Origin: Candidatus Thorarchaeota archaeon
Lineage (GTDB): Archaea; Asgardarchaeota; Thorarchaeia; Thorarchaeales; Thorarchaeaceae
Direction: 5' to 3'
Assembly: GCA_011364985.1 (NCBI GenBank)
Contig: RDOC01000001.1
Span: 155,124-219,123 of the forward strand
DNA: 64,000 bases
In this document: positions 7,703 to 25,361 of the stretch, in pieces
Layout: each line of letters starts with the position of its first letter
Position numbering within the stretch: the stretch's first letter is position 1
The notes under the pieces: generated by a model
The model's input: only the letters and a program-made list of their open reading frames with translations
The model's database searches: none
What the model was told of the DNA's origin: nothing
Program-made: the position numbers and the translations under genes

Positions 7703-10120
7703 TCATCTATGGAAAGTCGCAATCACTGTGTTGGACATTGGCAAAGCGCGAATGTATGCAATTCCAACCTCCTTCACTCGGTTTACAATGCCTCCTCCAA
7801 AGACTTTCATCATAGGCAAGGAGAAATACGTAGGCACATGAATTTCCAATTCATTTGGCAGCTGAGTCATCCGGATCTCAATCTGGTGTTGATTTGTAGA
7901 TGCTCCAACTTCAATGTCTACCTCACCCAGTGACAGTGGAATTCTATCTACGAGGAGGGGTGTGGGAGAAGTATACCATTCATCAGGAATGGCCGGGAGG
8001 ACAACGATATCCGACTCCATTTCAGATACCACCATTTCGCGCAAGAGGATGAGAAGATCTGCTGCTGCAATCATGCTGCATCCATCGCCAGAGTGTCCTG
8101 CACCCGAATGTGGATCGACAAACTCAGGAAGAGTATGGTATTCCGAGAGCAGCTCTATTGCTCTGCGAAGAATATTCCATGTGCCAGATTTGCGAAGCGT
8201 GAAGACGTAGTAGTGGGCCAAACGCAGTGCAAGATGACTGGAAAATCGTTTCTCCTCTCCCGGGATCATTACTAGATTCCTTCGCATAAGGTTGTCCAAA
8301 GTGGTGTTTAGCGACCATTGTTCAAGACTGCTGTCGATAGTACCCTTTCCGAGAAGAGCAATTGCTGCAAGGAGGTCAAGTGATGCAAGCGATAGATCGG
8401 GGTCATCCGCTTGGTCTACGACACTTTGGTAGACCCTCACTGATTTGGATTCAAGCCATTTTGCATAGTCGTTCTGCAGACTACAGAGCGATTCTGCCAA
8501 TTGGGTCATTTCAAGTGCCTCGAGAGACACCACACCGATTCTTAGAGCTGCTAAATCCCATAGTGAATCAACAATATCACGAAGTCCAAACTGCATTCTT
8601 ATTGGAACAGGAGCCACATCCGTTGTGATGTCCTCACGCAATTCAGCCGTTACCGCCAGTATTTCATCGACACCCAAGAACTCCTCTTTCGGCTCACTGT
8701 CTTCTCTGATTTTACCATGAATACTCCCAGACTTCACTGATTCATCAGCCAAATCGCCAGACTCACTTTGCACTCTGATTCTGGCCTCAATTGTCAATTG
8801 CATCTTAGAATAATATGCGCCAATCAATGGGCTTATTGTCTTCAGAAACGTCATATCTCGGAAATAGAAGAAATACTGAAGAATTCCCCAAATCAACGAA
8901 CTCTGGCTATTAGGAGGTGTTTCCTTTTCATCCGAAAACCACTTCCGGATTGCTTTAAGGGCAAGTTCTTTCGCTAGCTCGGAACAGCCAGAGCGGCATA
9001 GTGCAGAAAAGACTCTAGCCCATTCGATAGACTCGGTTGAGCCTACTGAGCTAATGCCTGAGTTCAGCTTTGTGTCAACTTGTTGTGCAAGAACGGCCTT
9101 CGCCTGCAGAGCGGCATCATTCAGCACTACCTCTGGAAAAGTAAGATTCGTTGTCTTTTCGGCGAAATCGAACCACATGCCTACATATTCATCCCTTACG
9201 TTCGTATTCATTTTGAAGGGGATTTCGTCTGTCTTCGTCATTCTGGATAAGGGACTCACAAAGAAATACTTCTTGGATTCAGCCGGAGCTAAATTGACTC
9301 TGTACTTCAGAACAGCAGTAACGAGACCTTTGACGCTAGAGAACTCTGTGTCCTTTCGGTCATTCTCTTCTTGGATAGTGGCGATCAGATTCGGATTATC
9401 AGCAGTTGAAAGAACGATTGACGATGCCAGCTTGTCAAAGAGCATGGCAACGTAACCATTGGAAATCATCATCTTCTGAGCGGAATCATACTCGACGGAC
9501 TCCAATGGTTCGACCCCTCTAACGGAAGTGGGTCTAAGAACTGCATAGAAAACAAACTCAGTATCATTCAGCGAATGGTTCTTTAAGTGAATCTCATTGT
9601 ATAGAGCTTCGCGTCCGCTCGATGTGCCATGATAAATCTGGCGAATCACTTCGATCGCCCCAAAGAATTTTCTCCATTCGAAAAGCTGATCATCAGGACT
9701 ATACAGCTCGATTCTTGATTCGTTTCGGTCAACCAAGGCAGGGAAGACCATAGAGCCTTTATCCTCAAACCAGAAATCAATGGACCCACATTCACGATTA
9801 GCTGTCACAAGTCCTGTTTCATCCATTATTGCATAATTGCTGGATCCCACTCCGCCAATGGTGATCCAGTTCTGGCTCATGTTATTGGAAAGGGCATCCT
9901 CGGATATACTGCCAGATTTGGAAATTGATGCCTGCTTTGTAGCCCAAGCGGGGAGCATCCATGATTCCGAGGAGGTATAAACTACCTTGTTCAATCCAAC
10001 CTGTAGATCACGTATTTCAAGTGCTGCGGAAGAATGTTGAAAGGATGACGACGGCACTTTGTTATTTCGTGCTACTCGCCTGAATCGCTCAATAAGGTTA
10101 TCATCTGTTAGGTCCAACAC
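7703..10120 (-). CDS. Large six-hairpin-glycosidase-like protein, uncharacterised
   Basis: An 805-residue protein with no signal peptide, from a GTG start preceded by GGAG (spacing 8). The N-terminal ~290 residues look like beta-sandwich. The middle (~340-680) is helical, with paired hairpins such as 'DSLWDLAALRIGVVSLEALEMTQLAESL'. The C-terminal part (LPAIPDEWYTSPTPLLVDRI onward) resembles the short beta-domain that closes many alpha/alpha-toroid glycoside hydrolases. No catalytic acid motif was recognised. I infer a glycosidase-like fold without assigning a reaction; it could also be a structural relative. It diverges from the ABC operon across a ~200-bp spacer. Confidence 0.4.
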   Translation of the reverse strand: MLDLTDDNLIERFRRVARNNKVPSSSFQHSSAALEIRDLQVGLNKVVYTSSESWMLPAWATKQASISKSGSISEDALSNNMSQNWITIGGVGSSNYAIMDETGLVTANRECGSIDFWFEDKGSMVFPALVDRNESRIELYSPDDQLFEWRKFFGAIEVIRQIYHGTSSGREALYNEIHLKNHSLNDTEFVFYAVLRPTSVRGVEPLESVEYDSAQKMMISNGYVAMLFDKLASSIVLSTADNPNLIATIQEENDRKDTEFSSVKGLVTAVLKYRVNLAPAESKKYFFVSPLSRMTKTDEIPFKMNTNVRDEYVGMWFDFAEKTTNLTFPEVVLNDAALQAKAVLAQQVDTKLNSGISSVGSTESIEWARVFSALCRSGCSELAKELALKAIRKWFSDEKETPPNSQSSLIWGILQYFFYFRDMTFLKTISPLIGAYYSKMQLTIEARIRVQSESGDLADESVKSGSIHGKIREDSEPKEEFLGVDEILAVTAELREDITTDVAPVPIRMQFGLRDIVDSLWDLAALRIGVVSLEALEMTQLAESLCSLQNDYAKWLESKSVRVYQSVVDQADDPDLSLASLDLLAAIALLGKGTIDSSLEQWSLNTTLDNLMRRNLVMIPGEEKRFSSHLALRLAHYYVFTLRKSGTWNILRRAIELLSEYHTLPEFVDPHSGAGHSGDGCSMIAAADLLILLREMVVSEMESDIVVLPAIPDEWYTSPTPLLVDRIPLSLGEVDIEVGASTNQHQIEIRMTQLPNELEIHVPTYFSLPMMKVFGGGIVNRVKEVGIAYIRALPMSNTVIATFHR

Positions 10121-10324
10121 GGTCCAACTCCAATTTGTGAGAGTGAGAAGCTGGCTGATGAGTCCTAAGTTGCGGAATAGGTAATTAATGTAGCTTGTTC
10201 ATTTTTCGGACATGTCATGGATACCTAAGCCTTAATAACACTCTCAAGCCCGATTGTACAAAAGCTCGATATGATTGCGTATTAAGCCCAAATGCTGATT
10301 GACCAAAGATATGAGGGATTTGCT

Positions 10325-11512
10325 ATGGCGGAAGTCCTCACGAAACCGTCTCGTAGAATTAGGAATATGGTTGCAAAGGAACTCAGATTAATAGCTAAAG
10401 ACAAGGTTGCTCTGTTCTTGATCTTTCTGCTTCCAGCCGCGCTGATTGGAATGCTCTGGTGGGTTACGGATATGAGCGACATGGGAGATATTCAGTTAGG
10501 CGATGATGACGGCGGCACAGACATTGGCACAAGCACAAACATAACCGAAGCTGAGGACACAGGTATCAGCATTGGGCTATTAGACTTCGACACAACACGC
10601 GTCTATGAAGGAGAGGACCTCTCTACAAACTTCACAAACTACTTGGAGATGTTCGTTGACGATTTAATAATGTACAACGACACGGCAGATGCTTTTCGAG
10701 ACTTGTATGAGGGCGAAATCCTTGGATATGTAATAATCCCTGATGGATTCGAGGCCAACCTGACTGAGAACATACCAACATATGTTGAAATTCATGTAGA
10801 TGCCACAGCACTATTGGATCAAGCTTCTGTTCAAGGTGTAATTCAGGGGGCTATAATAAGCTTCAGGGCATCAAAACTGTGGATTAGATCTGAAGTGTTT
10901 CCTTCGATGATAATCGAATTCCAGCCAGAAGGAAGCTACCTTGCTGCAGTCTTTGGAGCATTCATTGTCATAATATCCTCATACCTAGGAATTGCTATGA
11001 CTTCTGCCCAATCCATTGTAGGTGACATTCCTCTTCGTAGAATGTTACTCACCCCGACAAACAGGCTAGAAGTGATTACTTCTAAGGCCATCGCCTATGT
11101 GATTATTGGTTTCTTCCAATCGCTTCTTCTCATTTCCCTCTGGATTATTGCTTTCGATTTGGAGATGAACACTGGTTTTGGGAGTCTGGTTATCATTATG
11201 AGCCTAACAGCTTTGACAGGATCATCTACAGGGATAATCATCTCTGCAGCTGCAGGAACAAGATTGCAGGCCAATCAGATCTTTCTCTTTGTCATGTTTG
11301 GCTCTGTTATAATGTCAGGATTCTTTATCGACGTGGGTTGGCTCAATGAAGTACTCCCCCTGAATCTGGGAATGAGCGTCCTGATTGATACAGCATTCAA
11401 AGGATTATCATTACTTGATATCATAGATGCCATTCTTAGACTTCTTGCAATTTCATTAGGGATGATACTAGCTGCATCATTCATTTTCTCTAGAAAGCCA
11501 ACTCTTGACTAG
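10325..11512 (+). CDS. ABC-2 type transporter permease with large extracytoplasmic loop
   Basis: The protein has one N-terminal membrane helix (FLIFLLPAALIGMLWW), a ~150-residue acidic extracellular segment and five further helices, the common ABC-2 permease plan. I choose ATG 10325 (MAEVLTKPSRR): a GAGGG lies 8 nt upstream and the start gives the usual short cytoplasmic helix MVAKELRLIAKDK. The track start is 11 codons earlier. It is the first gene of a five-gene operon; the next gene starts directly at its stop. Only one permease is encoded, so it probably acts as a homodimer, or with a subunit encoded elsewhere, driven by the two ATPases of the operon. The cargo is unknown. Confidence 0.85.
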   Translation: MAEVLTKPSRRIRNMVAKELRLIAKDKVALFLIFLLPAALIGMLWWVTDMSDMGDIQLGDDDGGTDIGTSTNITEAEDTGISIGLLDFDTTRVYEGEDLSTNFTNYLEMFVDDLIMYNDTADAFRDLYEGEILGYVIIPDGFEANLTENIPTYVEIHVDATALLDQASVQGVIQGAIISFRASKLWIRSEVFPSMIIEFQPEGSYLAAVFGAFIVIISSYLGIAMTSAQSIVGDIPLRRMLLTPTNRLEVITSKAIAYVIIGFFQSLLLISLWIIAFDLEMNTGFGSLVIIMSLTALTGSSTGIIISAAAGTRLQANQIFLFVMFGSVIMSGFFIDVGWLNEVLPLNLGMSVLIDTAFKGLSLLDIIDAILRLLAISLGMILAASFIFSRKPTLD

Positions 11513-13216
11513 GTGATGGACATGATAAAACAAGATCGTGACGAAGCATCAGAAATCGAAGCAAAACCAACCTTTGTAGAAGAAGCCTACTTCTCTGGGG
11601 GAAGACTGAACGAAGCCATTGATTGGTGTCTTGCTCGTCACGACCGAGAAATTCACTGTATAGTGGAAGGAGTACTCAACAGTACAAGCAGGGAAGTACG
11701 TTTCAGCGGAAGGCTTCTGAAGATAAAGAAGAGTGTCTTGACACGGAGATTTGCCGCCCTTGTTGAAGAGGATTTGAGAAAGAGGAAGAGAGGAGATCTT
11801 GATGCAATTCTCACAGTGGGCGGAGAAGGGGCAACTCAAGAGGATGTTGCAGCCACCCAAATAACACTTCGTAATTACTTGAAAAGAAACCTCGCAGAAG
11901 ACTTGTATTATGATGGACGTGACCTTCAGCAGGCAGTGAAGGACCTTGAAAAGATGAAGAGCACACAGAGCCTCTGTACTGTGTGGGGTAATAGAGCCTC
12001 TGATAGGCTTCCGATTATGATAAGCGGAATGGTTGTAGGATTTGCCATTGAAGCAATGCAGCCTGCTCGCGGCACGATTCTACCTGAAGGGTTTCTTGAA
12101 GTCAGGGTTGAGCCAGAGGGCTCTGTGGGAGATCCGAAGATATACTTGGTCGCTCAACCACAGCTATTCATTGGTCCAGGGTATAATCCCAATCTTACAA
12201 TTATAGCCAGCAAGGTTTACATCCAGCCTTATGCCTGGAAAGAAGCGCCAGCCTATCGAGATGTCGTTGAAGCTAGGAACCTCACGGTCTCTCTAAAGAC
12301 CGGCAAGAACCTAGTAGAGAATGTATCATTTGCATTAGAAGAGGGAGAGATGCTTGCAATAATCGGTGAGTCGGGAGCTGGCAAGTCAACAACTGTGAAG
12401 GCACTAATTGGGGATATACCTAGTACAGGAGTCGCCAGAATCGCAGGAGTCGATTCCCGACAAACAACAAAGGTAAGGCACTTCTTTGGATATTGCCCAC
12501 AAGACCTATCCTACATGTACGAGACCTTCACACCATTGGAGAATATCATTGCGTTTGGGAAACAATACGATATACCGGAGTGGCAATTGATTCAGAGAGG
12601 GAAATCGCTGCTTAGGGACTTTGGGATTCTGGAAAAAGGAAACAATGCTACAAGAGAATTGAGTGGAGGACAGCAACGACGCGTATCCATAGCTGTGGCC
12701 TTGGCCCACATGCCAAAGGTACTGTTGATGGACGAGCCGACTTCCGGACTCGACCCAGACAACAGAAATGAGCTATGGAACTATCTAGCCTATATCAATC
12801 AGGAATATGGAACCTCAATCATTGTAATCACTCACTACCCGATAGAGGCAGAATTCTGCGATAAGGTTGCGGTCTTTATTCGTGGAAAATCACTTGTTGC
12901 CTTTGGCAGCCCACAAAGACTCAAGGAGTCCCTCCCAAATAGAGGCTTTTCTGTTGGAGTCGTGCTTGAAGAGGTGGATCCGCGAGCAAGGACGATCCTT
13001 GAGGAAGTGGAAGGAGTCCGCTTTGTGCTTCAGCGAGGAGAGCTACTCAAGGTATTCACAGATGAGCCCCTTGAGAAAGTGGCTCAGAAATGTGTCTCCG
13101 CACTCGATACCAGAAAGATTGCGGTTAAGATTGTGAAGACAAAATCCGTGGCCGATATGGTGGACTATTACATAGCAATCACTAGGGGCCTAGTAACAGG
13201 AACAATCGAGAAGTGA
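11513..13216 (+). CDS. ABC transporter ATPase with ~255-residue N-terminal extension
   Basis: The ABC domain begins near residue 257 (VEARNLTVSL). Walker A is IIGESGAGKST (~residue 282), signature LSGGQQRR, Walker B VLLMDEP, with a switch His in 'IVITHYP'. After it comes a ~100-residue C-terminal domain like the DUF4162 tails of ABC-2 exporters. The first 255 residues are unusual: a helical region rich in Lys/Arg/Glu, then a beta-rich part (RLPIMISGMVVGFAIEA ... EGFLEVRVEPEGSVGDPKIYLVA). I recognise no family there. Starts GTG 11513, ATG 11516 and ATG 11522 are all possible; 11522 has a GGTGA 5 nt upstream. It is probably the energy source for the adjacent permease. Confidence 0.85.
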   Translation: MMDMIKQDRDEASEIEAKPTFVEEAYFSGGRLNEAIDWCLARHDREIHCIVEGVLNSTSREVRFSGRLLKIKKSVLTRRFAALVEEDLRKRKRGDLDAILTVGGEGATQEDVAATQITLRNYLKRNLAEDLYYDGRDLQQAVKDLEKMKSTQSLCTVWGNRASDRLPIMISGMVVGFAIEAMQPARGTILPEGFLEVRVEPEGSVGDPKIYLVAQPQLFIGPGYNPNLTIIASKVYIQPYAWKEAPAYRDVVEARNLTVSLKTGKNLVENVSFALEEGEMLAIIGESGAGKSTTVKALIGDIPSTGVARIAGVDSRQTTKVRHFFGYCPQDLSYMYETFTPLENIIAFGKQYDIPEWQLIQRGKSLLRDFGILEKGNNATRELSGGQQRRVSIAVALAHMPKVLLMDEPTSGLDPDNRNELWNYLAYINQEYGTSIIVITHYPIEAEFCDKVAVFIRGKSLVAFGSPQRLKESLPNRGFSVGVVLEEVDPRARTILEEVEGVRFVLQRGELLKVFTDEPLEKVAQKCVSALDTRKIAVKIVKTKSVADMVDYYIAITRGLVTGTIEK

Positions 13217-13223
13217 TGAAGAA

Positions 13224-16200
13224 GTGGCTCTGACGAACTTGCTAAGACGAACAGCGACTGGTTTCGCAGTTTTGGTTCTAGTGATGGTCGTTTCAGTTAG
13301 CCCTATGATTGCTACGATGTCTGTACTACCGGAGATGACTGAAGAATCACCGGTAGTCAGAATAGATGACGCCCTCTTAGATGATATGAACTCGAGCAAT
13401 GAAACTGATATTCTTCTCACGTATAGTGATGCTGTTACCGAATACAAAGCGAAAACATCAATTGAGATGATAGACAGCTCAGCCAGAATCATTGAGACAT
13501 TCACTGACCTGAATATGCTTCGGGTGAAGCTCATAGGAAGCTCGATTGGGAAACTGGTCGAACTGAATTTCATCACGAATATATGGTCAAATGAGTTGTG
13601 TGAGGTGTCATCAGGCACCAATGCCTTGAGTCCAAGCGTTGCATCAAATCAGTACCAACCTGCTATCGACCTTATAGGTGGTCGGGGTCTCTGGGAGGAA
13701 GGATTCAATGGAACAGGTGTTGTCATTGCGGTTCTTGACACAGGTGTAGATAGCACCCATGCAGACCTTGACGACTTTGATGATAATGCCAGCACTTCTG
13801 ACACGAAAGTTGCAGCTTCGGCATCCTTCTCCGAAGGCGATACACTGCCCATCGATATAATAGGCCATGGGACTTACGCGGCATCAATTGCTGCAGGCAC
13901 TGGGAATAGCTCGGAAGGCTTGTATGCCGGGATAGCTCCAGGAGCTACTATTCTTTCAGCCAAGGTAACACTGGGAGGCCTATACGCATCACCTAGCTGG
14001 ATTGTATCAGGAATCGAATGGGCTGCAAGTAGAGGCGCAGACATCATCCTCCTGCCCTTCAACACCTTTGGTGCGCCAGGAGATGCTGTTTCTGTCGCAG
14101 TACGCGAAGCAGCAGAGAAGGGAATCTTCGTTGTTGCGGCGGCCGGTGACGATGGACCAGATTACCTCACAATCATGTCACCAGGGGGTTCTGCTGCAAC
14201 ATTTACAGTTGGGGCGTATGATACCGAGAAGCAAGAGATTCCTGATTTCTCGGGAAGAGGACCATCTCTTGACCTCCTAACAAAACCGGACATTGTGGCA
14301 CCAGGCGTAGGTGTTGTTGGAGCAAAGATGGGATCTGCGCTCGAAAGCCTTGGTTTCGGATCCTTTGACCTTGGCACCATTGGAAGCCTCTCGGGGCTTC
14401 TCGGTGGCGATAGCACCGGAGAAGACCTTGATGAGTACTACATGGTTGACGATACAACAACTGCATCTGCATCAATCGTAGCAGGAGCTGCTGCAATTCT
14501 CATGCAGGCATTCGATAGGGTAACACCCATTGCCCTTGGCAATGTCCTAAGAGACACTGCAACTCTAATTCCCTACGGAGCAAATGATGGAGGTGCTGGA
14601 CTTCTCAATCTGCAAGCAGCATTTAGCTATCTTCGAACCAAGCAAGAGCCCATAAACCCCCAAAACAGAACAACGGGAACATCACAACTTGCTCTTGGTA
14701 TCGTGACAACTGCAGGAACTGATTCCTCAACCATTCTACTAATGAGCAGCTACGGTACTACTGTGGCAGCAGTTGATACACGAACTAGTCAAGACACCAG
14801 CATTCACATTCTCATGGGGATGTTTGCCCTCAGCTGGGAAAACAGAAGCCCCACTAACCTCATGGAATTTGAAGTGAAAAGTGAACTTCACTACACTAGA
14901 CTAGACTCAGGAGATCTTGGTTACAACAGAATGGTTGGAGTTCTTGCGTATGATGAGATTTATGTGGTTCTGCTTGTGGAATCATATAATCTTACAACAT
15001 ATTCTTCTTTGCCACTTGACGGATTAAAGGTAACACCGTATATTCTTAATCTGGGTCCTAATCCTATTGATAATGTCAGTCTATTCCTGTCCTATTCTCT
15101 TGATCTCTTTAGTGACGGAGAGGATGACCATGGAAAATACTCGTTGGGCATGCAGGAGTTGTTTGTCTATGGCCAATCAGAAGACTTGGATAGCTTCTAC
15201 TTCGGTCTGAATTCCAGCATCCCATTATCCGCCTTTGAGATTGGCAATTCTTCCGAGGTATCATCTCATATTTCAGATGACGGCTTGACCGGCTCAACCA
15301 CATTCGACGGTTCGGTGGGTCTAGGGATGAAATGGCATTTTGGAGAACTCCCTGTGAAGAAACCAGCTAACGTTTCAATTGCTATGGGCTTCGGAGAGAA
15401 TCGAACAGTCCTTGATGCGTCAATCCTAGCACAATGGGAAGCAGAGCCTCCATCTACGGTTACTGATGAAGGAGACCTCATTATTGTCGAGGCAGACATT
15501 CCACGAGTTGCCGAGATAGGGGAGCATTATAAAACAAGGGCAGTCATGATCAACGTGGGTGGAAATGCCTCACAAGCGACCGGCGCATTCTTGGTGGCAA
15601 AGGAAGAGGACAACGGACTATCGATGTTCAGCAGAGTGTTCTTGTTTGATGAAGTAAAACCATTCCATGCAGAGATACTAACAACAACTTGGAGCCCTGA
15701 GAAGATGGGCATAAACACTGCTGCATGGATTGCTGCACCAGATTTCGCTATTGTAACACAACTATTCTTGGGAACAGCGAATATCGTTGACCTGATCAAT
15801 CTCTTGGACAACTTTCTCTTGCGAGATGTTTTTGTCATTGACCCAATCTCCTCAACATCAGTGTTCCCTAAACAGCTGCCATTTGCACCCTTTGATATCG
15901 TATTTCCCGCTGATTTTGGTTTATACACATTCGTAGTCGCCACAACAGAAAGCCTTGGAAACCTCACTGTACAGAAGTATGGCAATGCAAGCGATTGGGG
16001 TAATGCCACACTACCAAGTACAGAAACAGTGGAGGGTTATTACAACTTCTCACTCTTTCTTCTAGCATCCCCGATAACCATTGATGGATACCATCGATGT
16101 GACTATGTAATCGATACGGACACAGGCTGGACCTACAATATTACGTTGGAAACAAGCCTTAGATATCCTAGAGCAATGATGCTGGTTGACACCTCTCACG

Positions 16201-17594
16201 GGGGAGGATTGAGTTTCTTTGGAGGCTTTGGGGATGTGGGAGGTATGGGAGATATTGGCGGAAGCATGGAATTCCCGCTTGCACAGGATGATAGCGGAGG
16301 CATTTCACTTGATTCAGGATTCGACCTCAGCAGCCTTGGAGACCTAGGTGATCTTACCGGTCTATTGGATGCATTTCGTCTCACAACATTCTCAGGACTA
16401 TCAAGCATGAAGAAAGCGATGGCCAACAGAGGTCTTGATTTGGTTGAAACGCCAGGAATTGAGCTTGATGAAGACCTTCTAAGCCAGTTCTCGGCAGTCT
16501 TTGTCTTCAGTCCAACGGAAGAATTCAACAGCACAGACGTTGACATGCTCAGGAAATATACAAGAGATGGTGGCAAGCTAATAGTCCTTGGAGATGAGGA
16601 TGGTACAGCCAATCTAACTGGCATTAACAATTTGATTTCGCCTTTTGGATACTCGATGCAAGGCGCTCATCGGCAAGAGAACACCACAGACATCATAAGT
16701 GGAACGCTGCTTGGGAGTAGTCTAGACTCAATCTGGCTTGGTGGTGGAACCTACATTCTGGGTAATCAGTCGTTATCCACCGCTTTCGTCAATGGAAAAC
16801 CTGTTGTCCTCCTTGACGATTCAAGACCAGAGTTGGCCCTCTTTGGGTCTTCAAGAATATTCATGAACAAGAATCTTGCAAAATGCAACAATTCTCTTCT
16901 ATTAGATAATCTAATCACATACCTATTGAGAAACACGCTGACGGGAGAGGCATCACTGGCTGAAGACACCCACTTATACGAGGCGGGAAAGAGCGTCTAT
17001 CTGAATCTTGTGATAACAGACATACATGGGCGTCCTGTGAACGATTTGTTCGTGGCAATAGCCTTTGAGCTGCCCAATGATACGCTTGTCTTTTTTATTG
17101 CCGGATTTGTGGAGAACGGACTCTACTCGTCCCAGTTCACTCCGAGCTACTGGAAATCAGCAGGAAGAATCAACGGTATCTTTGTGATAATGGGTGGGGA
17201 GAACTATGCCAATACCTATGCCGGCATAGGATTCGAGCTTTATGAACCAAGTGCCACTACAGGAGTCGAGCCGCCGTTCAGACTCTTGACAATGGCCCAG
17301 ATAGCCATGTTAGCTGCCGGCGGCATCTTTGGCTCTCTAATACTGGGGCTCGTCTACAATAGAAGAGCCAAGCGCAAGAAGATGCGCATCATTGAGATTG
17401 AGCCCGAATTAGTGAGAGAGATTGACAATACGCTAAATGCATTGCTTGCTGCTTTCACGCAGATAGAACAGCTCATCCAACGAGAAGACCTAGACCGAGT
17501 ACAGAAAATAGAATCGTTGAGAGGACTTATGGAAGGGCTCGAAAAGGGACAAAAGGAGTTCAAGAAGGTGAGCGATAGAGTGGGAGGTGTGTGA
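13224..17594 (+). CDS. Membrane-anchored subtilisin-fold protein, probable pseudoprotease
   Basis: 1456 residues from a GTG start with an N-terminal signal helix (FAVLVLVMVVSVSPMIATM). A subtilase domain spans ~150-480: catalytic Asp172 (IAVLDTGVDSTHADL) and His215 (IIGHGTYAASIAAG) are present. The oxyanion Asn is Asp309 (AAAGDDGP), and the 'GTSMAxP' serine box reads TTTASASIVAG, placing Thr413 at the Ser position. Further on is a long beta-rich region. At ~1060-1240 there is a DUF4350/GATase-like domain (SQFSAVFVFSPTEEF ... GGKLIVLGDE). Near the C-terminus are a membrane helix (IAMLAAGGIFGSLILGLVY), a basic stop-transfer and a helical cytoplasmic tail. It sits between two ABC ATPases, suggesting a structural extracellular partner of the transporter rather than a peptidase. 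Confidence 0.85.
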   Translation: MALTNLLRRTATGFAVLVLVMVVSVSPMIATMSVLPEMTEESPVVRIDDALLDDMNSSNETDILLTYSDAVTEYKAKTSIEMIDSSARIIETFTDLNMLRVKLIGSSIGKLVELNFITNIWSNELCEVSSGTNALSPSVASNQYQPAIDLIGGRGLWEEGFNGTGVVIAVLDTGVDSTHADLDDFDDNASTSDTKVAASASFSEGDTLPIDIIGHGTYAASIAAGTGNSSEGLYAGIAPGATILSAKVTLGGLYASPSWIVSGIEWAASRGADIILLPFNTFGAPGDAVSVAVREAAEKGIFVVAAAGDDGPDYLTIMSPGGSAATFTVGAYDTEKQEIPDFSGRGPSLDLLTKPDIVAPGVGVVGAKMGSALESLGFGSFDLGTIGSLSGLLGGDSTGEDLDEYYMVDDTTTASASIVAGAAAILMQAFDRVTPIALGNVLRDTATLIPYGANDGGAGLLNLQAAFSYLRTKQEPINPQNRTTGTSQLALGIVTTAGTDSSTILLMSSYGTTVAAVDTRTSQDTSIHILMGMFALSWENRSPTNLMEFEVKSELHYTRLDSGDLGYNRMVGVLAYDEIYVVLLVESYNLTTYSSLPLDGLKVTPYILNLGPNPIDNVSLFLSYSLDLFSDGEDDHGKYSLGMQELFVYGQSEDLDSFYFGLNSSIPLSAFEIGNSSEVSSHISDDGLTGSTTFDGSVGLGMKWHFGELPVKKPANVSIAMGFGENRTVLDASILAQWEAEPPSTVTDEGDLIIVEADIPRVAEIGEHYKTRAVMINVGGNASQATGAFLVAKEEDNGLSMFSRVFLFDEVKPFHAEILTTTWSPEKMGINTAAWIAAPDFAIVTQLFLGTANIVDLINLLDNFLLRDVFVIDPISSTSVFPKQLPFAPFDIVFPADFGLYTFVVATTESLGNLTVQKYGNASDWGNATLPSTETVEGYYNFSLFLLASPITIDGYHRCDYVIDTDTGWTYNITLETSLRYPRAMMLVDTSHGGGLSFFGGFGDVGGMGDIGGSMEFPLAQDDSGGISLDSGFDLSSLGDLGDLTGLLDAFRLTTFSGLSSMKKAMANRGLDLVETPGIELDEDLLSQFSAVFVFSPTEEFNSTDVDMLRKYTRDGGKLIVLGDEDGTANLTGINNLISPFGYSMQGAHRQENTTDIISGTLLGSSLDSIWLGGGTYILGNQSLSTAFVNGKPVVLLDDSRPELALFGSSRIFMNKNLAKCNNSLLLDNLITYLLRNTLTGEASLAEDTHLYEAGKSVYLNLVITDIHGRPVNDLFVAIAFELPNDTLVFFIAGFVENGLYSSQFTPSYWKSAGRINGIFVIMGGENYANTYAGIGFELYEPSATTGVEPPFRLLTMAQIAMLAAGGIFGSLILGLVYNRRAKRKKMRIIEIEPELVREIDNTLNALLAAFTQIEQLIQREDLDRVQKIESLRGLMEGLEKGQKEFKKVSDRVGGV

Positions 17595-17595
17595 G

Positions 17596-18585
17596 ATGTC
17601 TGATGCTGAGAAGACTCAAGCACTCGAGATTGACATCAAGGACCTCAAGGTTGCCTTTGGTGATTTTTACGCACTTAATGGGGTTTCGTTTTTCGCTTAC
17701 AAGAAGGAGTTCCTCGGAATCATTGGGGCCTCTGGAGCAGGGAAGACCACTGTTCTCCGTGTTCTTACAGGACAGGTCGGACCAACCTCTGGTCAAGCCT
17801 TTGTTGGCGGCTTTGATGTGACTAAGAAGAGCGACCTAATCAGCCTTCTAGTTGGCTACGTTCCTCAACTAGAGCATCTCAGTCTGTACTATGACTTTAC
17901 CGCCCTTCAAAATGCCGAGTTCTTTGGTAGGTGTTTTGGCCTGAGGCCTAAGGAGATAGAGAAGCGTGCTCGAAACATCCTGACAATTCTTGGTTTCGAT
18001 GAAGAACTCATGACAAAGGCGGTAAAGAGACTCTCAGGTGGAGAGAGGAAGCGTGTTTCCATTTGTCTTGGCATGATTCATGATCCCCCAGTGCTGTTGC
18101 TCGACGAACCTACAACCGGCCTCGATGCACACCTCAGACACGAGACTCTGAACTACCTGAAAGAACTGAACTACGAACTGGGAACAACGATGGTCATCAT
18201 CTCCCATGACCTTGAGATTGTTGACTATTGTACACGAGTATGCCTGCTGGAAGACGGGCTCATTAGCCAATTTGGCACTCCAGAGGAGTTGATCTCCACG
18301 CTGCCCGGAAAAGGCGAGAGTTTGAGGATTGTTCTTCCAAAGATAACGACTGGAATCATGAACCAAGTGATGTCACTTCCTGGCGTCGAATATGTGGCTG
18401 CAGCCGGTAGAAACGCAGTCAAGCTTTTCATTGATGATCCGGATAAGCAGATTCTTCCAATTATCAAAATGCTCAACCAGAGAGGTATACCCTTTGAGGA
18501 GATATCCCTAGTAGAGAGCGATTTCTTCGATTACTTCCAAGTGAAGCCTTGGAAAGACAATGGTGGAGGAGAGAGTACTCCGTGA
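17596..18585 (+). CDS. ABC transporter ATPase (second of the operon)
   Basis: A standard ABC ATPase: Walker A IIGASGAGKTT, signature LSGGERKR, Walker B VLLLDEPTTGLD and a switch His in 'VIISHDLE', followed by a short DUF4162-like C-terminal domain. ATG 17596 (MSDAEKTQ) is the likely start: a GGAGGTG inside the end of the upstream gene lies 6 nt before it, and the gap to the upstream stop is 1 nt. It differs from the first ATPase of the operon by lacking the N-terminal extension. The two may form a heterodimer. Its stop overlaps the start of the giant repeat protein. Confidence 0.9.
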   Translation: MSDAEKTQALEIDIKDLKVAFGDFYALNGVSFFAYKKEFLGIIGASGAGKTTVLRVLTGQVGPTSGQAFVGGFDVTKKSDLISLLVGYVPQLEHLSLYYDFTALQNAEFFGRCFGLRPKEIEKRARNILTILGFDEELMTKAVKRLSGGERKRVSICLGMIHDPPVLLLDEPTTGLDAHLRHETLNYLKELNYELGTTMVIISHDLEIVDYCTRVCLLEDGLISQFGTPEELISTLPGKGESLRIVLPKITTGIMNQVMSLPGVEYVAAAGRNAVKLFIDDPDKQILPIIKMLNQRGIPFEEISLVESDFFDYFQVKPWKDNGGGESTP

Positions 18586-21500
18586 AACGAAACAGAATAC
18601 TCCTAGTATTATTGTGTGCTTGTGTGCTAATCGGACTCCAAGCATTAATTGGAGATCCCACAGGGCAATCTGTTGCCATCATACAGGACAGGTCCAGTGC
18701 AGTAGTCGCGGAGATTGCTCCGTTCGACACCGCGATTGTGTGGTCCAATGACACAGGAGGACAGGTGGCTGGTATTGCCATTGCTAATTTTGATGGCGAT
18801 AACTACGATGAGATGGCGGTGGTCACTCAGGCCGGGGTGTTACAGCTCTATGATCACACTGGGAATCGTCTCTGGAGCAGAGACCTGATGACTCCAGCCA
18901 ATGACATCGCGACCTTGGATAGGAACGCCGACGGAGAAATGGAGATCGTGGTGGGAACTGACGATGGCTTCATGGTGATGACAGCATCCCAGACCGTTCT
19001 TGCCAATATTGCCCTTCCAAATCCAGTACAGGCCGTTGATTCCGGTGACCTTGATCTGGACACCTTTGACGAGGTCTTCATTGGATGCGATGACAACCAT
19101 CTCTACGCCTATGAGGCAAATGGCACCTATATCTGGGAGTTTGCAAGCAATGGGCCCATCACTCAGGTTCTGGCCGCTGATGTTGACCTCGACAGTGGAG
19201 CAGAGGTGCTTGTCGGGTCCTCAGCTGGAAAATTCGCTCTGGTCGAAACCACTGGAGCCGTCACATTCAGTGTAGACAAGGCTTATGCTATCACTGGAGT
19301 GGCTGCAGGAAACCTGCTGAGCGGGGGAAATCTAGAGGTAGCCTTTGGTACCGCTGGGGGCGAAATTGCAGTCTATCGAAGTGCCGGCACTCCAGAATAT
19401 GGCATCTACCATGATGATGCAGTGACCGCCTTGCACATTGGACAGCTTGTTTCTGGAGGCTTTGATGAGATGGCCTTTGGCACTGCAGGAAACGAACTGC
19501 ACGTCTACAATGGCACCGGCTCTATGCAATGGAATAAGACGTTGGCAGGCCAAGTAAACAGCATCCGCTTTGCCAATGTGGGCGGTCTCCCGAACAATCA
19601 GCTCATCTCTGGTACTGGGGCTGGGACCCTCAACGTCTACAATGCCACAGGTTACAGGGTGGTTCAGACTACCCTTGATACTTTCCAAGGAGTCATTGCC
19701 ATCGGTGATATCGACACCAATGGCAACAGCGAGTATGCCGCAGGAACCAACAACGGCATCATTAACGTCTACGGAAGGGATCTTGATGGCGACGACCTTG
19801 CAGATGCGCGAGAAACCCTCATCGACCTCACTAACCCCGCAGAGCCTGACTCGGACTATGACAATTTAGATGATGGTGAAGAGGTTCTTCAGTATGGTAC
19901 AGATCCAAATAGCGACGACTCAGACTCAGATAAGCTGAAGGACTTCTCAGAAGTTCACACCTATGGAACCGATCCCAACGATGCTGATTCTGACGATGAC
20001 CTTCTCACAGACTGGCAAGAGATCTACCTCGGTACCGATCCCAATGACGAAGACTCGGACGGAGATGACTTGACAGACTTTGAAGAGAACAACGTGACTC
20101 TCACGGACCCACTTGATTCTGACACGAACAACAATGATATCAATGACGGGGCTGACGATAATGATGGCGATGGCCTGACAAATCTGCAAGAAGTGCGTCT
20201 TACGCTTACCGATCCCAATGATGTGAACACAGATGGAGATGCGCTCAGCGATTATTATGATGATGAGGACGCAGATAGCCTCGCCAACTGGAAGGAGATT
20301 CAGGTCGGTGCGGACCCGCTTGATCCTGACTCAGATGATGACTTGCTTTTGGACGGTGCAGAGGTCAAGATATGGAAGTCCAGCCCCACGAATCCAGACA
20401 CTGACGGAGACGATTTGACCGACTATGAAGAAGTCATGATTGTTGGCTCGAACCCCACCAAAGCTGATACTGACGAAGACACGCTGTCTGACTACGAAGA
20501 ATACGTGACCTACGGAACCAACGTCACCAATGCCGACTCGGACTATGACGACTTGGAAGATGCAGACGAGATCAATGAGTACTTCACAGACCCTCTCGAT
20601 TGGGACTCGGACGGAGATACTCTGTCGGATGGCGACGAAGTAAATGTATATGGTACTGACCCCAACTCGGTGGACACGGATCTAGACACGCTTTCGGATG
20701 ATTATGAGATTACACAGGGAACGAACCCCAAGAAGGCAGACACCGACGGAGACACGATAAATGACGCGCTTGAATTGCTTACCTATTTCACCAATGCCAC
20801 AAATGTCGACACCGATGGCGACCTGATTCGGGACAACGATGAGATCAAGTATCTGGCATTTGGTTTCGACCCCACGGATTCGACTTCTTGGGGGCAGCCA
20901 GAGAGCGATTATGATTATGATGCTGACGGTGACTTGCTTACTAATGGTCAGGAGATATACCTCACCCGAACGCATCCAGGCCGAATTGACTCAGACCTAG
21001 ATGGTACCAACGACAATCTTGAGGATGCTGACTTGGATGACATCAACAACTACGATGAGATCAACGTGACTGATACAGACCCTCGAAATCCTGATACCGA
21101 TGGGGATGAAGTGAAGGATGGTGATGAGTATCTCATTTTAGGAACTGACCCCAACGATGAGGACACGAATGATAATTCAATCAACGATTATGATGAGGAC
21201 CCCGATGAGGACAACCTCTCCAATGGTGTCGAGCTCTATATCACCGATACTGACCCCTTGGACGCAACAACTCACGGGACAACGCCAGACGACGAATATG
21301 ATGGTGACGGAGATTTCTTGCCAAACTGGTTTGAAGTCTTTAGAACTGGGACTGACCCGCTGTACAATGATACCAATGACAATGGCATCTTTGACTGGGA
21401 GGAGGACCCAGACAATGATGATTTGACCAATCTGCAGGAGTATGAGGTATGGAGAGATTTTGGGTACGAGTGTGATCCCCTCGATGCAGACTCTGACAAT

Positions 21501-24500
21501 GACCAACTAACGGATGGTGAAGAGGTCCTCTACACGCTCACCGATCCCAGCGACAATGATGACGACGATGACACGATTCTCGATGGTCAAGACGACCAGG
21601 ACAACGATGGCCTAACAAACATAGAGGAACTGCGGATCTATAACACGAATGCCACCAATTGGGATACCGACGGAGACATGATCCGCGACGGGCTTGAGAT
21701 TCAGATAGGGCTGAATGCGACAAACTTTGACACGGATGGGGATGGGATCTATGATGGATGGTTCGATGAGGATGGGGACGGAATCTATGACCCTGAAGAG
21801 CTAGGAGAAGATGTGGATGCAGATGGCATTGTTGACCCTGAAGAAACCGACCCGAACAACGCAGATTCCGACGGGGATGAGTTAGATGATTATGAGGAAT
21901 ACTTAGTGGGCACGAATCCGTTGAAACCAGATTCGGACGAAGATTTGCTGCTTGATGGTCAGGAGGTTCTTCACTTCGGGACGAATCCGCTTTCAAACGA
22001 CACTGATGGAGATCTCCTTGATGACTATATTGAGGTGAATGTTACCCTTACCGACCCAACTAATATGTGGTTCAATGGCACTCACACGGATTACCAAATT
22101 GACTCGGATAATGACATGCTGTCAAATGGTGACGAAATCTACATCTATGACACTAGCCCCGGCGACTTCGACTCCGATGACGACCTCATTGGAGATGGCG
22201 AAGAGATACTTGTCTATGGCTCAGACCCGCTAAAATGGGACTCCGATGGAGACCTGCTATCGGACTACGATGAGATTATGAGATACGGGACGAACCCCGC
22301 GGCCCAGGACTCTGACGCAGATCAGGTCGATGACTATTCGGAGATTGTGATTCTTGGCACTGATCCGAACCTATGGAGCACAGCAGGCAACGGCACTTCA
22401 GACTATGACCGAGATGAGGATGGAGATGGTCTAAGCAACGGTCTCGAACTCTATGGTTACCACAGCAATGCCACGTCTTCTGACACTGATGGAGATGAAT
22501 TGGAAGATGGCATAGAGGTCTATCTCGCAGGGAGCAGCCCGACCGACAAAGACACTGACGATGACGGTGTTAGTGACTACTTAGAATACATGGTCTACCA
22601 CACAGACGCTTCGGGCTCGGATTCAGACTCAGACGATTTGACGGACTACTATGAAATCTACGTGTCCCTTACGAGTCCTACTGACTGGGACTCAGACGAT
22701 GACCAGCTCTCTGACGGTGACGAGGTGAATGAATATGGGACAGACCCCAAGGCAGCGGACTCGGACAACGACCAGCTCAATGACAGAAGGGAGCTGTTTG
22801 AGGTTGGTACCGACCCCTTGCTCAACGATACTGACGGAGACACCCTCAGTGACTACGAAGAATGGGTTATTTACGGTACAGACCCGCTAGTGGCCGATGC
22901 AGACGAAGATGGACTTAACGACGCAGAAGAAATAGAGAACGGAACTGACCCAGAGAATGAAGACTCCGACTTTGATTCCCTTAGCGATTATGATGAGGTC
23001 AATATCTACGAAACCAGTCCTATTAACGCAGACACAGACTTTGATAACCTTGCAGATAGTGATGAAATATTCAATAGCAAGACCGATCCCAATCGCGCGG
23101 ACACCGATGGGGACTCAATCCCGGATGACCTTGATGATAAGGACGCCGATGGAATAAGCAACTTCGATGAGATCTACGTGTATGAAACCAACTGCACTCT
23201 CTTTGACACCGACGGGGATATGCTAGGGGATGGCTATGAAATCGCACAAAATCCATGGGTAACCGACCCGAATGAGGTTGATACCGATGATGATTTGCTT
23301 AGCGACTGGGATGAAATCTTCATGTGGTCTAGCAATCCAACACGCAAGGATACCGACGGGGATCTCCTCCAAGATGGTGAGGAAGTTCTGACCTGGCACA
23401 CCGACCCTAACCTCGATGATACAGACGCCGATATGGTCAACGATTATGATGAAATCAAGGTCTTCGAAACAAACGCGTTGGACCCCGATTCTGATGATGA
23501 CAATTTGTCCGATGGTTATGAGTTGTTCGTCTACAACACGGACCCCCTCAATGAAGACACAGACAATGACAGACTACTGGACGACGAAGAGGAATTCTAT
23601 GGTACTGACCCAAGAGTGGAAGATACAGATGAAGACGAACTAACAGACTATGAAGAAGTGTACTTGACGGGTACAGATCCGACCCTATACAGTACGGAGG
23701 GCGACGGAATTTCAGACGCCGACCGTGACGGCGATAACGACATGCTCACAAATTCTCAGGAGATTCGTCTGACTAAAACAAACCCTGCTAGCAATGATAC
23801 CGATGCCGATGGCAAAATCGATGGATTAGATGACGAGGATAGAGACCTCTTGACCAACTACGAGGAATGCGTCATTACTGAAACTGACCCCAGAGACAGA
23901 GACTCCGACGACGACGGTGTTAGCGACCTGAACGACGATCAGGACGGGGATGGACTCACGAATGGTGATGAGGTGCACATTTATCTGACAGACCCGCTAC
24001 GTCGCGATACTGACGGAGACAAACTGTCTGACAGAGAAGAGGTTGAAGACTACGGCACAGATCCGCTCGTCAAGGACACGGACATGGACGAAATCGAGGA
24101 CTACGAGGAGATAAACACCTATCACACCAATGCGACCTACTTTGATACAGACTACGACCTGCTCAGCGATTGGATCGAAATCTTCCTAACTGAAACTGAC
24201 CCGACGAATATGTGGTACAATGCGACTCATACGGACTATGAGATTGACTCAGATGGTGACTTCTTATCCAATGGTGCAGAGATCTACAATTACGCCACAT
24301 CACCGGGAGACCCTGATTCGGACAACGACAACTTGCTTGATGGCGAAGAAATCGCACTGGGAACGGACCCCCTTGAAGAAGACTCAGACTTGGATAATCT
24401 CATTGACGGCTTGGAAGTGCACGTATACCAAACTGACCCCCTCTCCGAGGACACCGACGAAGACCAAATCAATGACTACGATGAAGTGCGCATCTACTTC

Positions 24501-25361
24501 ACGAACCCAAACGTTGAAGACACGGATCAAGACAACCTATCAGATTACGATGAAATCTTCGTCTACTTTACGGACCCGAACTCCGGAGACTCCGATAGGG
24601 ATCAGGTCCCTGACTATACCGAAGTTGTAACCTATGCCGAGTATAACATGAATCCCTGGCAGGCAGATTCTGACAGCGACGGGCTGAGCGACAGCCTTGA
24701 ACTCTACACAATAGGCACGAACCCCGGTCTGAATGACACAGACGCGGATGGACTTGACGACTATGCAGAATACTACACCTACAAAACCTCCCCGTTGGCT
24801 CCTGATACAGACCAAGATGGCTGGACGGACTATGAAGAAGTCACCATCTACGGGACCGACCCGCTAAAGGTCGACACGGATGCAGACGGTCTCATGGACT
24901 CAATGGATTTCAATCCGCGGCTCCACTGGGTCGTGCCAATCATCGTTCTACTATTCGTTGGCGGCATCACCGCAGTAGTCTATAAACGCGTACGTAGAAC
25001 TACACGCAGAGAGGAGTACATCACAAAGGCAGAGCCTGCAAGCCTCGGTCTTGAGAAGGGGATGGACATCGCGGTGGAGTACAAGATACGCGAAGGCAAG
25101 GTGGTCTTTGGCGTGGCGATACGGAATAACTCTGCGAACCCCATGAGCAATGTGCAGGTGGTGCTTGGTATACCCGAACTGACAGATACCATCCAGAGCA
25201 AGAGCGCAGGTTCTGTTGAGCCCGGCGATAGTGCAGTGGTAGAGATCGCCTTCGAATTGCAGCCCGGCGCCGAGGGCGAGCTAGTAGGCATGGTGGAATA
25301 TGACTCCGTCGAGGGTGAGCACCGTATAGTGAACCTAAAGCCCGTCAGGATTGTAGCATAG
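18582..25361 (+). CDS. Giant surface protein: beta-propeller, thrombospondin type 3 repeats, membrane anchor, cytoplasmic domain
   Basis: About 2259 residues. I choose GTG 18582 (MKRNRILLVLLCACVLIG), which overlaps the ATPase stop as GTGA and follows a GGAGGAG; the track's TTG 18549 would put charged residues before the signal helix. Residues ~50-400 form FG-GAP/PQQ-like propeller blades ('ANFDGDNYDEMAVVT', 'DLDLDTFDEVFIG'). Residues ~405-2105 are dozens of ~23-residue TSP3-type units (for example DTDGDTLSDYEEWVIYGTDP), rich in Asp and probably binding Ca2+. A single membrane helix follows (WVVPIIVLLFVGGITAVVY) with a basic stop-transfer, then a ~115-residue cytoplasmic beta-domain (FGVAIRNNSANPMSNVQVV). 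This is likely a rigid Ca-dependent stalk or adhesin coupled to the co-transcribed ABC complex. Confidence 0.9.
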   Translation: MKRNRILLVLLCACVLIGLQALIGDPTGQSVAIIQDRSSAVVAEIAPFDTAIVWSNDTGGQVAGIAIANFDGDNYDEMAVVTQAGVLQLYDHTGNRLWSRDLMTPANDIATLDRNADGEMEIVVGTDDGFMVMTASQTVLANIALPNPVQAVDSGDLDLDTFDEVFIGCDDNHLYAYEANGTYIWEFASNGPITQVLAADVDLDSGAEVLVGSSAGKFALVETTGAVTFSVDKAYAITGVAAGNLLSGGNLEVAFGTAGGEIAVYRSAGTPEYGIYHDDAVTALHIGQLVSGGFDEMAFGTAGNELHVYNGTGSMQWNKTLAGQVNSIRFANVGGLPNNQLISGTGAGTLNVYNATGYRVVQTTLDTFQGVIAIGDIDTNGNSEYAAGTNNGIINVYGRDLDGDDLADARETLIDLTNPAEPDSDYDNLDDGEEVLQYGTDPNSDDSDSDKLKDFSEVHTYGTDPNDADSDDDLLTDWQEIYLGTDPNDEDSDGDDLTDFEENNVTLTDPLDSDTNNNDINDGADDNDGDGLTNLQEVRLTLTDPNDVNTDGDALSDYYDDEDADSLANWKEIQVGADPLDPDSDDDLLLDGAEVKIWKSSPTNPDTDGDDLTDYEEVMIVGSNPTKADTDEDTLSDYEEYVTYGTNVTNADSDYDDLEDADEINEYFTDPLDWDSDGDTLSDGDEVNVYGTDPNSVDTDLDTLSDDYEITQGTNPKKADTDGDTINDALELLTYFTNATNVDTDGDLIRDNDEIKYLAFGFDPTDSTSWGQPESDYDYDADGDLLTNGQEIYLTRTHPGRIDSDLDGTNDNLEDADLDDINNYDEINVTDTDPRNPDTDGDEVKDGDEYLILGTDPNDEDTNDNSINDYDEDPDEDNLSNGVELYITDTDPLDATTHGTTPDDEYDGDGDFLPNWFEVFRTGTDPLYNDTNDNGIFDWEEDPDNDDLTNLQEYEVWRDFGYECDPLDADSDNDQLTDGEEVLYTLTDPSDNDDDDDTILDGQDDQDNDGLTNIEELRIYNTNATNWDTDGDMIRDGLEIQIGLNATNFDTDGDGIYDGWFDEDGDGIYDPEELGEDVDADGIVDPEETDPNNADSDGDELDDYEEYLVGTNPLKPDSDEDLLLDGQEVLHFGTNPLSNDTDGDLLDDYIEVNVTLTDPTNMWFNGTHTDYQIDSDNDMLSNGDEIYIYDTSPGDFDSDDDLIGDGEEILVYGSDPLKWDSDGDLLSDYDEIMRYGTNPAAQDSDADQVDDYSEIVILGTDPNLWSTAGNGTSDYDRDEDGDGLSNGLELYGYHSNATSSDTDGDELEDGIEVYLAGSSPTDKDTDDDGVSDYLEYMVYHTDASGSDSDSDDLTDYYEIYVSLTSPTDWDSDDDQLSDGDEVNEYGTDPKAADSDNDQLNDRRELFEVGTDPLLNDTDGDTLSDYEEWVIYGTDPLVADADEDGLNDAEEIENGTDPENEDSDFDSLSDYDEVNIYETSPINADTDFDNLADSDEIFNSKTDPNRADTDGDSIPDDLDDKDADGISNFDEIYVYETNCTLFDTDGDMLGDGYEIAQNPWVTDPNEVDTDDDLLSDWDEIFMWSSNPTRKDTDGDLLQDGEEVLTWHTDPNLDDTDADMVNDYDEIKVFETNALDPDSDDDNLSDGYELFVYNTDPLNEDTDNDRLLDDEEEFYGTDPRVEDTDEDELTDYEEVYLTGTDPTLYSTEGDGISDADRDGDNDMLTNSQEIRLTKTNPASNDTDADGKIDGLDDEDRDLLTNYEECVITETDPRDRDSDDDGVSDLNDDQDGDGLTNGDEVHIYLTDPLRRDTDGDKLSDREEVEDYGTDPLVKDTDMDEIEDYEEINTYHTNATYFDTDYDLLSDWIEIFLTETDPTNMWYNATHTDYEIDSDGDFLSNGAEIYNYATSPGDPDSDNDNLLDGEEIALGTDPLEEDSDLDNLIDGLEVHVYQTDPLSEDTDEDQINDYDEVRIYFTNPNVEDTDQDNLSDYDEIFVYFTDPNSGDSDRDQVPDYTEVVTYAEYNMNPWQADSDSDGLSDSLELYTIGTNPGLNDTDADGLDDYAEYYTYKTSPLAPDTDQDGWTDYEEVTIYGTDPLKVDTDADGLMDSMDFNPRLHWVVPIIVLLFVGGITAVVYKRVRRTTRREEYITKAEPASLGLEKGMDIAVEYKIREGKVVFGVAIRNNSANPMSNVQVVLGIPELTDTIQSKSAGSVEPGDSAVVEIAFELQPGAEGELVGMVEYDSVEGEHRIVNLKPVRIVA
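19780..24890 (+). repeat. Tandem thrombospondin type 3 repeat region
   Basis: Roughly 70 protein repeats of ~23 residues with consensus DxDxDxLxDxxExxxxGTDPxxxD. Spacing is mostly constant but interrupted by shorter 'DDxDxDGLTNxxE' units. Longer segments recur: 'TDPTNMWFNGTHTDY' near 22055 and 'TDPTNMWYNATHTDY' near 24200 share their following repeats as well. This indicates block duplication about 2.1 kb long on top of the single-repeat expansion. Confidence 0.85.

Follow-up and report, generated by a model that had tools for sequence, protein, structure and literature searches.

The stretch of DNA examined here (the window, 64,000 nucleotides of contig RDOC01000001.1 from a Candidatus Thorarchaeota archaeon) carries a gene for a large protein with a degenerate subtilase domain of peptidase family S8, called the pseudo-subtilase below. 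This protein is probably a subunit of a dedicated ATP-binding cassette (ABC) transporter of the Asgard archaea, located outside the cell, anchored in the membrane and without catalytic activity, as the adjacency of its gene to transporter genes suggests, and a receptor or scaffold role at that transporter, with physical binding to it, is what we infer. A reading made from the letters alone (the sequence-only reading) had proposed a pseudoprotease that serves for binding or as a scaffold; this is still the best reading and is supported by the relatives, and the scaffold can now be described more concretely, since the gene belongs to a conserved ABC-transporter locus. The gene and the parts of its product are as follows (aa, amino acids):

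13224..17594, + strand: pseudo-subtilase/GIFT membrane protein of Thorarchaeota, an open reading frame of 1456 aa (coordinates include the stop), with Pfam matches to S8 and IFT52_GIFT
13242..13331, + strand: N-terminal hydrophobic, signal-peptide-like segment, residues 7-36 (hydropathy)
13395..13592, + strand: propeptide-like domain, about residues 58-123, beta-alpha-beta-beta-alpha-beta (AlphaFold confidence score pLDDT mostly 83-90; pro-Tk-SP alignment)
13710..14582, + strand: degenerate S8 domain, residues 163-453 (Pfam; Foldseek)
16101..17003, + strand: GIFT/GATase-like domain region, residues 960-1260 (profile against PDB)
17301..17357, + strand: C-terminal membrane helix, residues 1360-1378, with a basic stretch and then a conserved helical tail behind it (hydropathy; tail conservation)

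Active site of the degenerate domain

The S8 domain is matched by the Pfam profile Peptidase_S8 (PF00082) with E = 7.1e-42 (144 bits versus a cut-off of 21.8), and its structural model matches subtilisins in Foldseek with a template modelling score of ~0.73 by target length. In an alignment to solved subtilases, including Thermococcus Tk-SP, DTTTASASIVAG corresponds to the GT(S/A)MATPHVAG box and AAGD to AAGN, and the four active-site positions named in the sequence-only reading are correct in both place and residue. They are listed below together with the residues in the same columns of the relatives; these counts rest on 52 distinct degenerate S8 domains from Asgard archaea, and the searches were made mostly within Asgard genomes.

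13737..13739, + strand: Asp172 in LDTGVD, the catalytic Asp, kept (Asp in 50 of 52 relatives, Ser in 2)
13866..13868, + strand: His215 in GHGT (His in 42 of 52, Arg in 5, Ser in 3, Glu in 2)
14148..14150, + strand: Asp309 in AAGDDGP, at the oxyanion-Asn position (Asp in 52 of 52 relatives; Asn in 29 of 29 active paralogs)
14460..14462, + strand: Thr413 in TTTASAS, at the nucleophile position (Ala in 26 of 52, Thr in 13, Gly in 6, Ser in 5, Leu in 1, Phe in 1)

An active S8 peptidase is recognized by its Asp-His-Ser triad, its GTS box and its oxyanion Asn, and the window has Thr413 and Asp309 instead. Neither a G-T-S box nor an oxyanion Asn occurs in any of the 52 relatives; in 44 of them Thr or Ser stands in place of the Gly of the box, the SLG motif of the substrate strand has turned into PFN and similar sequences, and family f21 has lost Asp, His and Ser altogether. 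Because Asp309 is present in every relative and the G-T-S box in none, chance or sequencing error is excluded, on these alignments, as the source of the substitutions. In addition, the nucleophile column contains Ala in half of the relatives and Gly, Leu or Phe in others, so that a Thr nucleophile, for which the earlier reading had left room, is excluded as the mechanism of the family as far as sequence can tell; the column looks like one drifting among small residues. Whether orthologs share the substitutions had been proposed as a check: Asp309 is common to all, while Thr at the nucleophile position is shared by only 13. As for the two observations that were held to tell against a pseudoprotease, the window itself has Thr413 and five relatives do have Ser in that column, all five without a G-T-S box and without an oxyanion Asn, and orthologs with an intact GTS box are absent from the family, such boxes being confined to a separate paralogous clade.

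An Asp at the oxyanion position is also carried by sedolisins and PC2, both of which are active. Therefore, Asp309 alone is no proof of inactivity, and it is the loss of Ser together with the whole GTS box that is decisive. A sedolisin (S53; Ser-Glu-Asp triad, oxyanion Asp) would fit Asp309, but a conserved Ser is absent among the 52 relatives. A literature search for an oxyanion Asp yielded only a review of PCSK9, which describes Asn there. The invariance of Asp309 where catalysis is no longer selected suggests that the old active site has retained a role.

Selection, active paralogs and domain layout

Thirteen loci were obtained from GTDB genomes, every one of them from Thorarchaeota or Hermodarchaeota. 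When the C-terminal part was used as the query against 228 genomes of the phylum, 43 of the 47 genomes in the family to which the window belongs gave a strong match (E < 1e-80), with more distant matches in other families of the phylum; among 20 distant loci taken with their flanks, 17 are of the degenerate kind. The ratio of nonsynonymous to synonymous substitution rates (dN/dS) in the S8 domain of close orthologs is 0.04-0.07, and mean column identity is 74% in S8 versus 64% in the remainder (from two alignments whose sequence sets are not exactly identical), which makes S8 the best-conserved part of the protein. Because of this, the gene is judged to be under strong purifying selection and not decaying. 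Single in-frame stops (TAG and TAA) occur in the corresponding genes of L042 and G187:C73, where assembly error or local gene loss is possible.

A second group of proteins in the phylum, found by searching with L064, has the same layout of S8, GIFT/GATase-like domain and C-terminal membrane helix, and the GIFT domains of the two paralogs are homologous (hhalign E = 1.6e-34). Unlike the pseudo-subtilases, these proteins have canonical Asp, His, Asn and Gly-Thr-Ser in all 29 sampled, and ABC genes are rare beside them. Such active proteases (L063-L095), with the layout of site-1 protease and in several cases a C-terminal zinc ribbon lacking in the pseudo-subtilase, are widespread in Asgard archaea. 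The 29 degenerate domains that were sampled all fall into a single clade in a tree of S8 domains (support 99/100), and this clade is retained when the motif columns are removed (92/99), so that a single loss of catalysis is favoured, though the position of the root is not secure. The tree without motif columns also includes three Thorarchaeal rows (L112, L113 and L115) that come from another S8 gene of this locus, one carrying an insertion; they are long-branched and leave the pseudo-subtilase clade unaffected. Another subtilase in the window's own genome (L002), separate from the gene discussed here, keeps its triad.

The IFT52_GIFT profile (PF23355) matches the pseudo-subtilase with 1.3e-9 (37.9 bits versus a gathering cut-off of 27.2), and a profile of the GIFT region matches, within PDB, IFT52 (1.9e-15), site-1 protease (3.3e-10, covering positions 12-245 of 272) and the oligosaccharyltransferase (OST) subunit WBP1 (4e-4). 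The name of the domain derives from GldG and IFT52, and one is also present in Wbp1 (PMC7226087). The resemblance to site-1 protease (MBTPS1/SKI-1) extends beyond this nearly complete GIFT match to S8, a beta region and a GIFT/GATase-like domain in the same order, and site-1 protease has a C-terminal membrane helix. The profile of the active Asgard family aligns to it in a single stretch, through S8 into GIFT. The pseudo-subtilase thus has the layout of site-1 protease without its active triad: site-1 protease is an active enzyme, whereas the pseudo-subtilase lacks Ser, oxyanion Asn and GTS box, has about 480 aa of extra sequence between S8 and GIFT and is encoded in an ABC operon. Its further parts include a long beta region; the C-terminal hydrophobic helix is present in every full-length relative examined, and the conserved tail after it is predicted to be cytoplasmic. 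The family profile aligns to pro-Tk-SP from within the propeptide of the latter, and the propeptide-like domain presumably stays attached, since there is no catalysis. The C-terminal AlphaFold model, a weak one (pLDDT 51), gave Foldseek matches to macroglobulin-like domains and OST48, which are leads only.

The ABC transporter locus

The pseudo-subtilase gene is the third of five genes that overlap or are separated by a few bases, in the order permease, ATPase 1, pseudo-subtilase, ATPase 2 and giant protein. The other four are:

10292..11512, + strand: ABC-2 type permease (ABC2_membrane_3, 1.5e-24; 7 hydrophobic segments)
11513..13216, + strand: ABC ATPase 1 with an N-terminal extension of ~230 aa (ABC_tran, 6.5e-27; TrmB-like match in the extension)
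17587..18585, + strand: ABC ATPase 2 (ABC_tran, 4.2e-26)
18549..25361, + strand: giant beta-propeller/TSP3-repeat protein of 2270 aa, the fifth gene of the operon (TSP3_bac, 1e-24; N- and C-terminal hydrophobic helices by hydropathy)

In 26 of 30 loci, drawn from several Asgard families, the degenerate gene has homologs of the permease and ATPases at most three frames away, and from Thorarchaeota to distant Asgard families the conserved locus includes the permease and ATPase 1 and, in most cases, ATPase 2. ABC genes were found near active paralogs in 4 of 23 loci, three of these beside an FtsX-type permease. At L097 (7258-13156), L098 (2952-8606) and L103 (7288-12974), of families f3 and f4, active proteases with S8, GIFT and membrane helix adjoin an ABC ATPase and an FtsX-type permease; because of these loci, the association with ABC genes may be older than the loss of activity, or it may have arisen twice.

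The extension of ATPase 1 gives a partial match to the TrmB sugar-regulator domain (PF11495, 26.9 bits versus a cut-off of 22.2) and is possibly a sensory module; the relatives of ATPase 1 in other families have similar length. The giant protein consists mostly of TSP3-type, Asp-rich, calcium-binding-like repeats, with a beta-propeller in its N-terminal part, and scores 2e-92 against the model of the CglD gliding lipoprotein, yet below the cut-off. An intact counterpart with 59% identity is present at L005. At four other loci (L004, L007, L012 and L015) the sequence 3' of ATPase 2, that is, the giant-protein region, reads as N, and the frames that seemed to join ATPase 2 to the giant protein there run through masked N stretches, so that this fusion was rejected. 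Upstream of the operon and divergent from it, an 805-aa protein without a Pfam match (7703-10120, - strand) is conserved in several Thorarchaeota.

Alternative explanations and possible mechanism

Several known systems resemble the pseudo-subtilase in part. GldG has a GIFT-type domain and a membrane anchor and is found beside an ABC-2 permease and an ATPase, as the pseudo-subtilase is, but it has no subtilase domain; against the corresponding profile ABC_transp_aux (PF09822) the pseudo-subtilase scores 19.5 bits, below the gathering cut-off of 34.7, and relative L050 passes with 37.6 bits. Mycosin MycP of type VII secretion is a membrane-anchored subtilase needed by the secretion complex independently of proteolysis; secretion requires neither its proteolysis nor its substrate binding, and mycosin stabilizes the ESX complex (PMC5082899). 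However, mycosin keeps its triad and its partner is ESX, not an ABC transporter. CspC and CspA of Clostridioides are degenerate S8 proteins with a retained prodomain that act without proteolysis, CspC being a proposed germinant receptor (PMC6636752), but they are soluble spore proteins. Membership in the mycosin, CspC and PatA families was rejected, the scores lying under the curated cut-offs (100.4 versus 278.75 bits for the type VII secretion mycosin model TIGR03921, 32 versus 675 bits for CspC and 44.5 versus 1250 bits for CspBA). Literature searches for Asgard archaea together with subtilase, site-1 protease or IFT52 found no paper in the library searched.

That the protein is still a protease, with Thr413 as the nucleophile and the oxyanion Asp working as in sedolisins, is very improbable: the window and most relatives retain Asp172 and His215, four relatives combine Asp, His and Ser, and an oxyanion Asp is compatible with catalysis, but Ala in 26 relatives and Gly, Leu or Phe in 8 occupy the nucleophile column under the same selection, His is lost in 10 of the 52, and the GTS box and substrate strand are altered. 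Slightly more credible, although still improbable, is a pseudoprotease that acts as sensor or regulator for the active paralogs or for other proteases, comparable to CspC/CspA with CspB, the ABC link being incidental. S8 pseudoprotease sensors do exist, and active and inactive paralogs occur together in some genomes; however, the gene partners in most loci are ABC subunits and not an active protease, and the pseudo-subtilase is anchored in the membrane with a conserved tail. A decaying former protease gene, to which the lost catalytic residues and the stops in two relatives might point, is refuted by dN/dS and conservation, since the frame is long and open, nearly all genomes of the window's family have a strong match and one clade spans many Asgard families.

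The most serious competitor, unlikely as it is, makes the S8 domain an inert wall that stabilizes the transporter and binds no ligand. Mycosin sets a precedent, in that substrate binding is dispensable there too, and the ABC locus as well as the drift of the active-site residues, Asp309 excepted, agree with it; yet the conservation of S8 above the other domains and of Asp309 in all relatives exceeds what an inert wall would seem to need. Three observations weigh against an inactive transporter subunit. Asp, His and Ser occur together in 4 of the 52 relatives, each with Asp at the oxyanion position and without a GTS box; 4 of the 30 pseudo-subtilase loci, including all three of family f13, have no nearby ABC genes; and the AlphaFold models have low confidence (mean pLDDT 60 and 51), which puts the geometry of the cleft beyond judgement. 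The non-catalytic ABC subunit nevertheless remains the probable reading.

If so, the protein would descend from a site-1-protease-like membrane protease with S8 and GIFT domains in which catalysis was lost once. The dead cleft and the GIFT domain would bind an extracellular peptide, protein or glycan, and the membrane helix and tail would couple the protein to the permease and ATPases. The transporter would thereby be gated or stabilized, much as may happen with GldG-type auxiliaries and as mycosin stabilizes ESX without proteolysis. Asp309 would keep a function of the old site, either in ligand binding or in an internal salt bridge. A more far-reaching version is offered tentatively, as possible rather than probable: Asgard archaea would have a prokaryotic counterpart of the eukaryotic site-1 protease, and in one of the paralogs catalysis would have disappeared a single time, far back in the history of these archaea, after which this protein served as a permanent extracellular ABC subunit, the invariant Asp309 turning the oxyanion hole into a binding site for the transported or sensed ligand.

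These observations suggest that, in what looks like a single ancient event, a protease fold became the constant partner of a membrane transporter in a large part of the Asgard archaea, the lineage most closely related to eukaryotes. Since the members of the active sister family are laid out like site-1 protease, which acts in membrane signalling in eukaryotes, they may bear on the origin of that enzyme. If the present reading is confirmed, it would become possible to test both this origin and what an invariant Asp at the oxyanion position does in an inactive protease.
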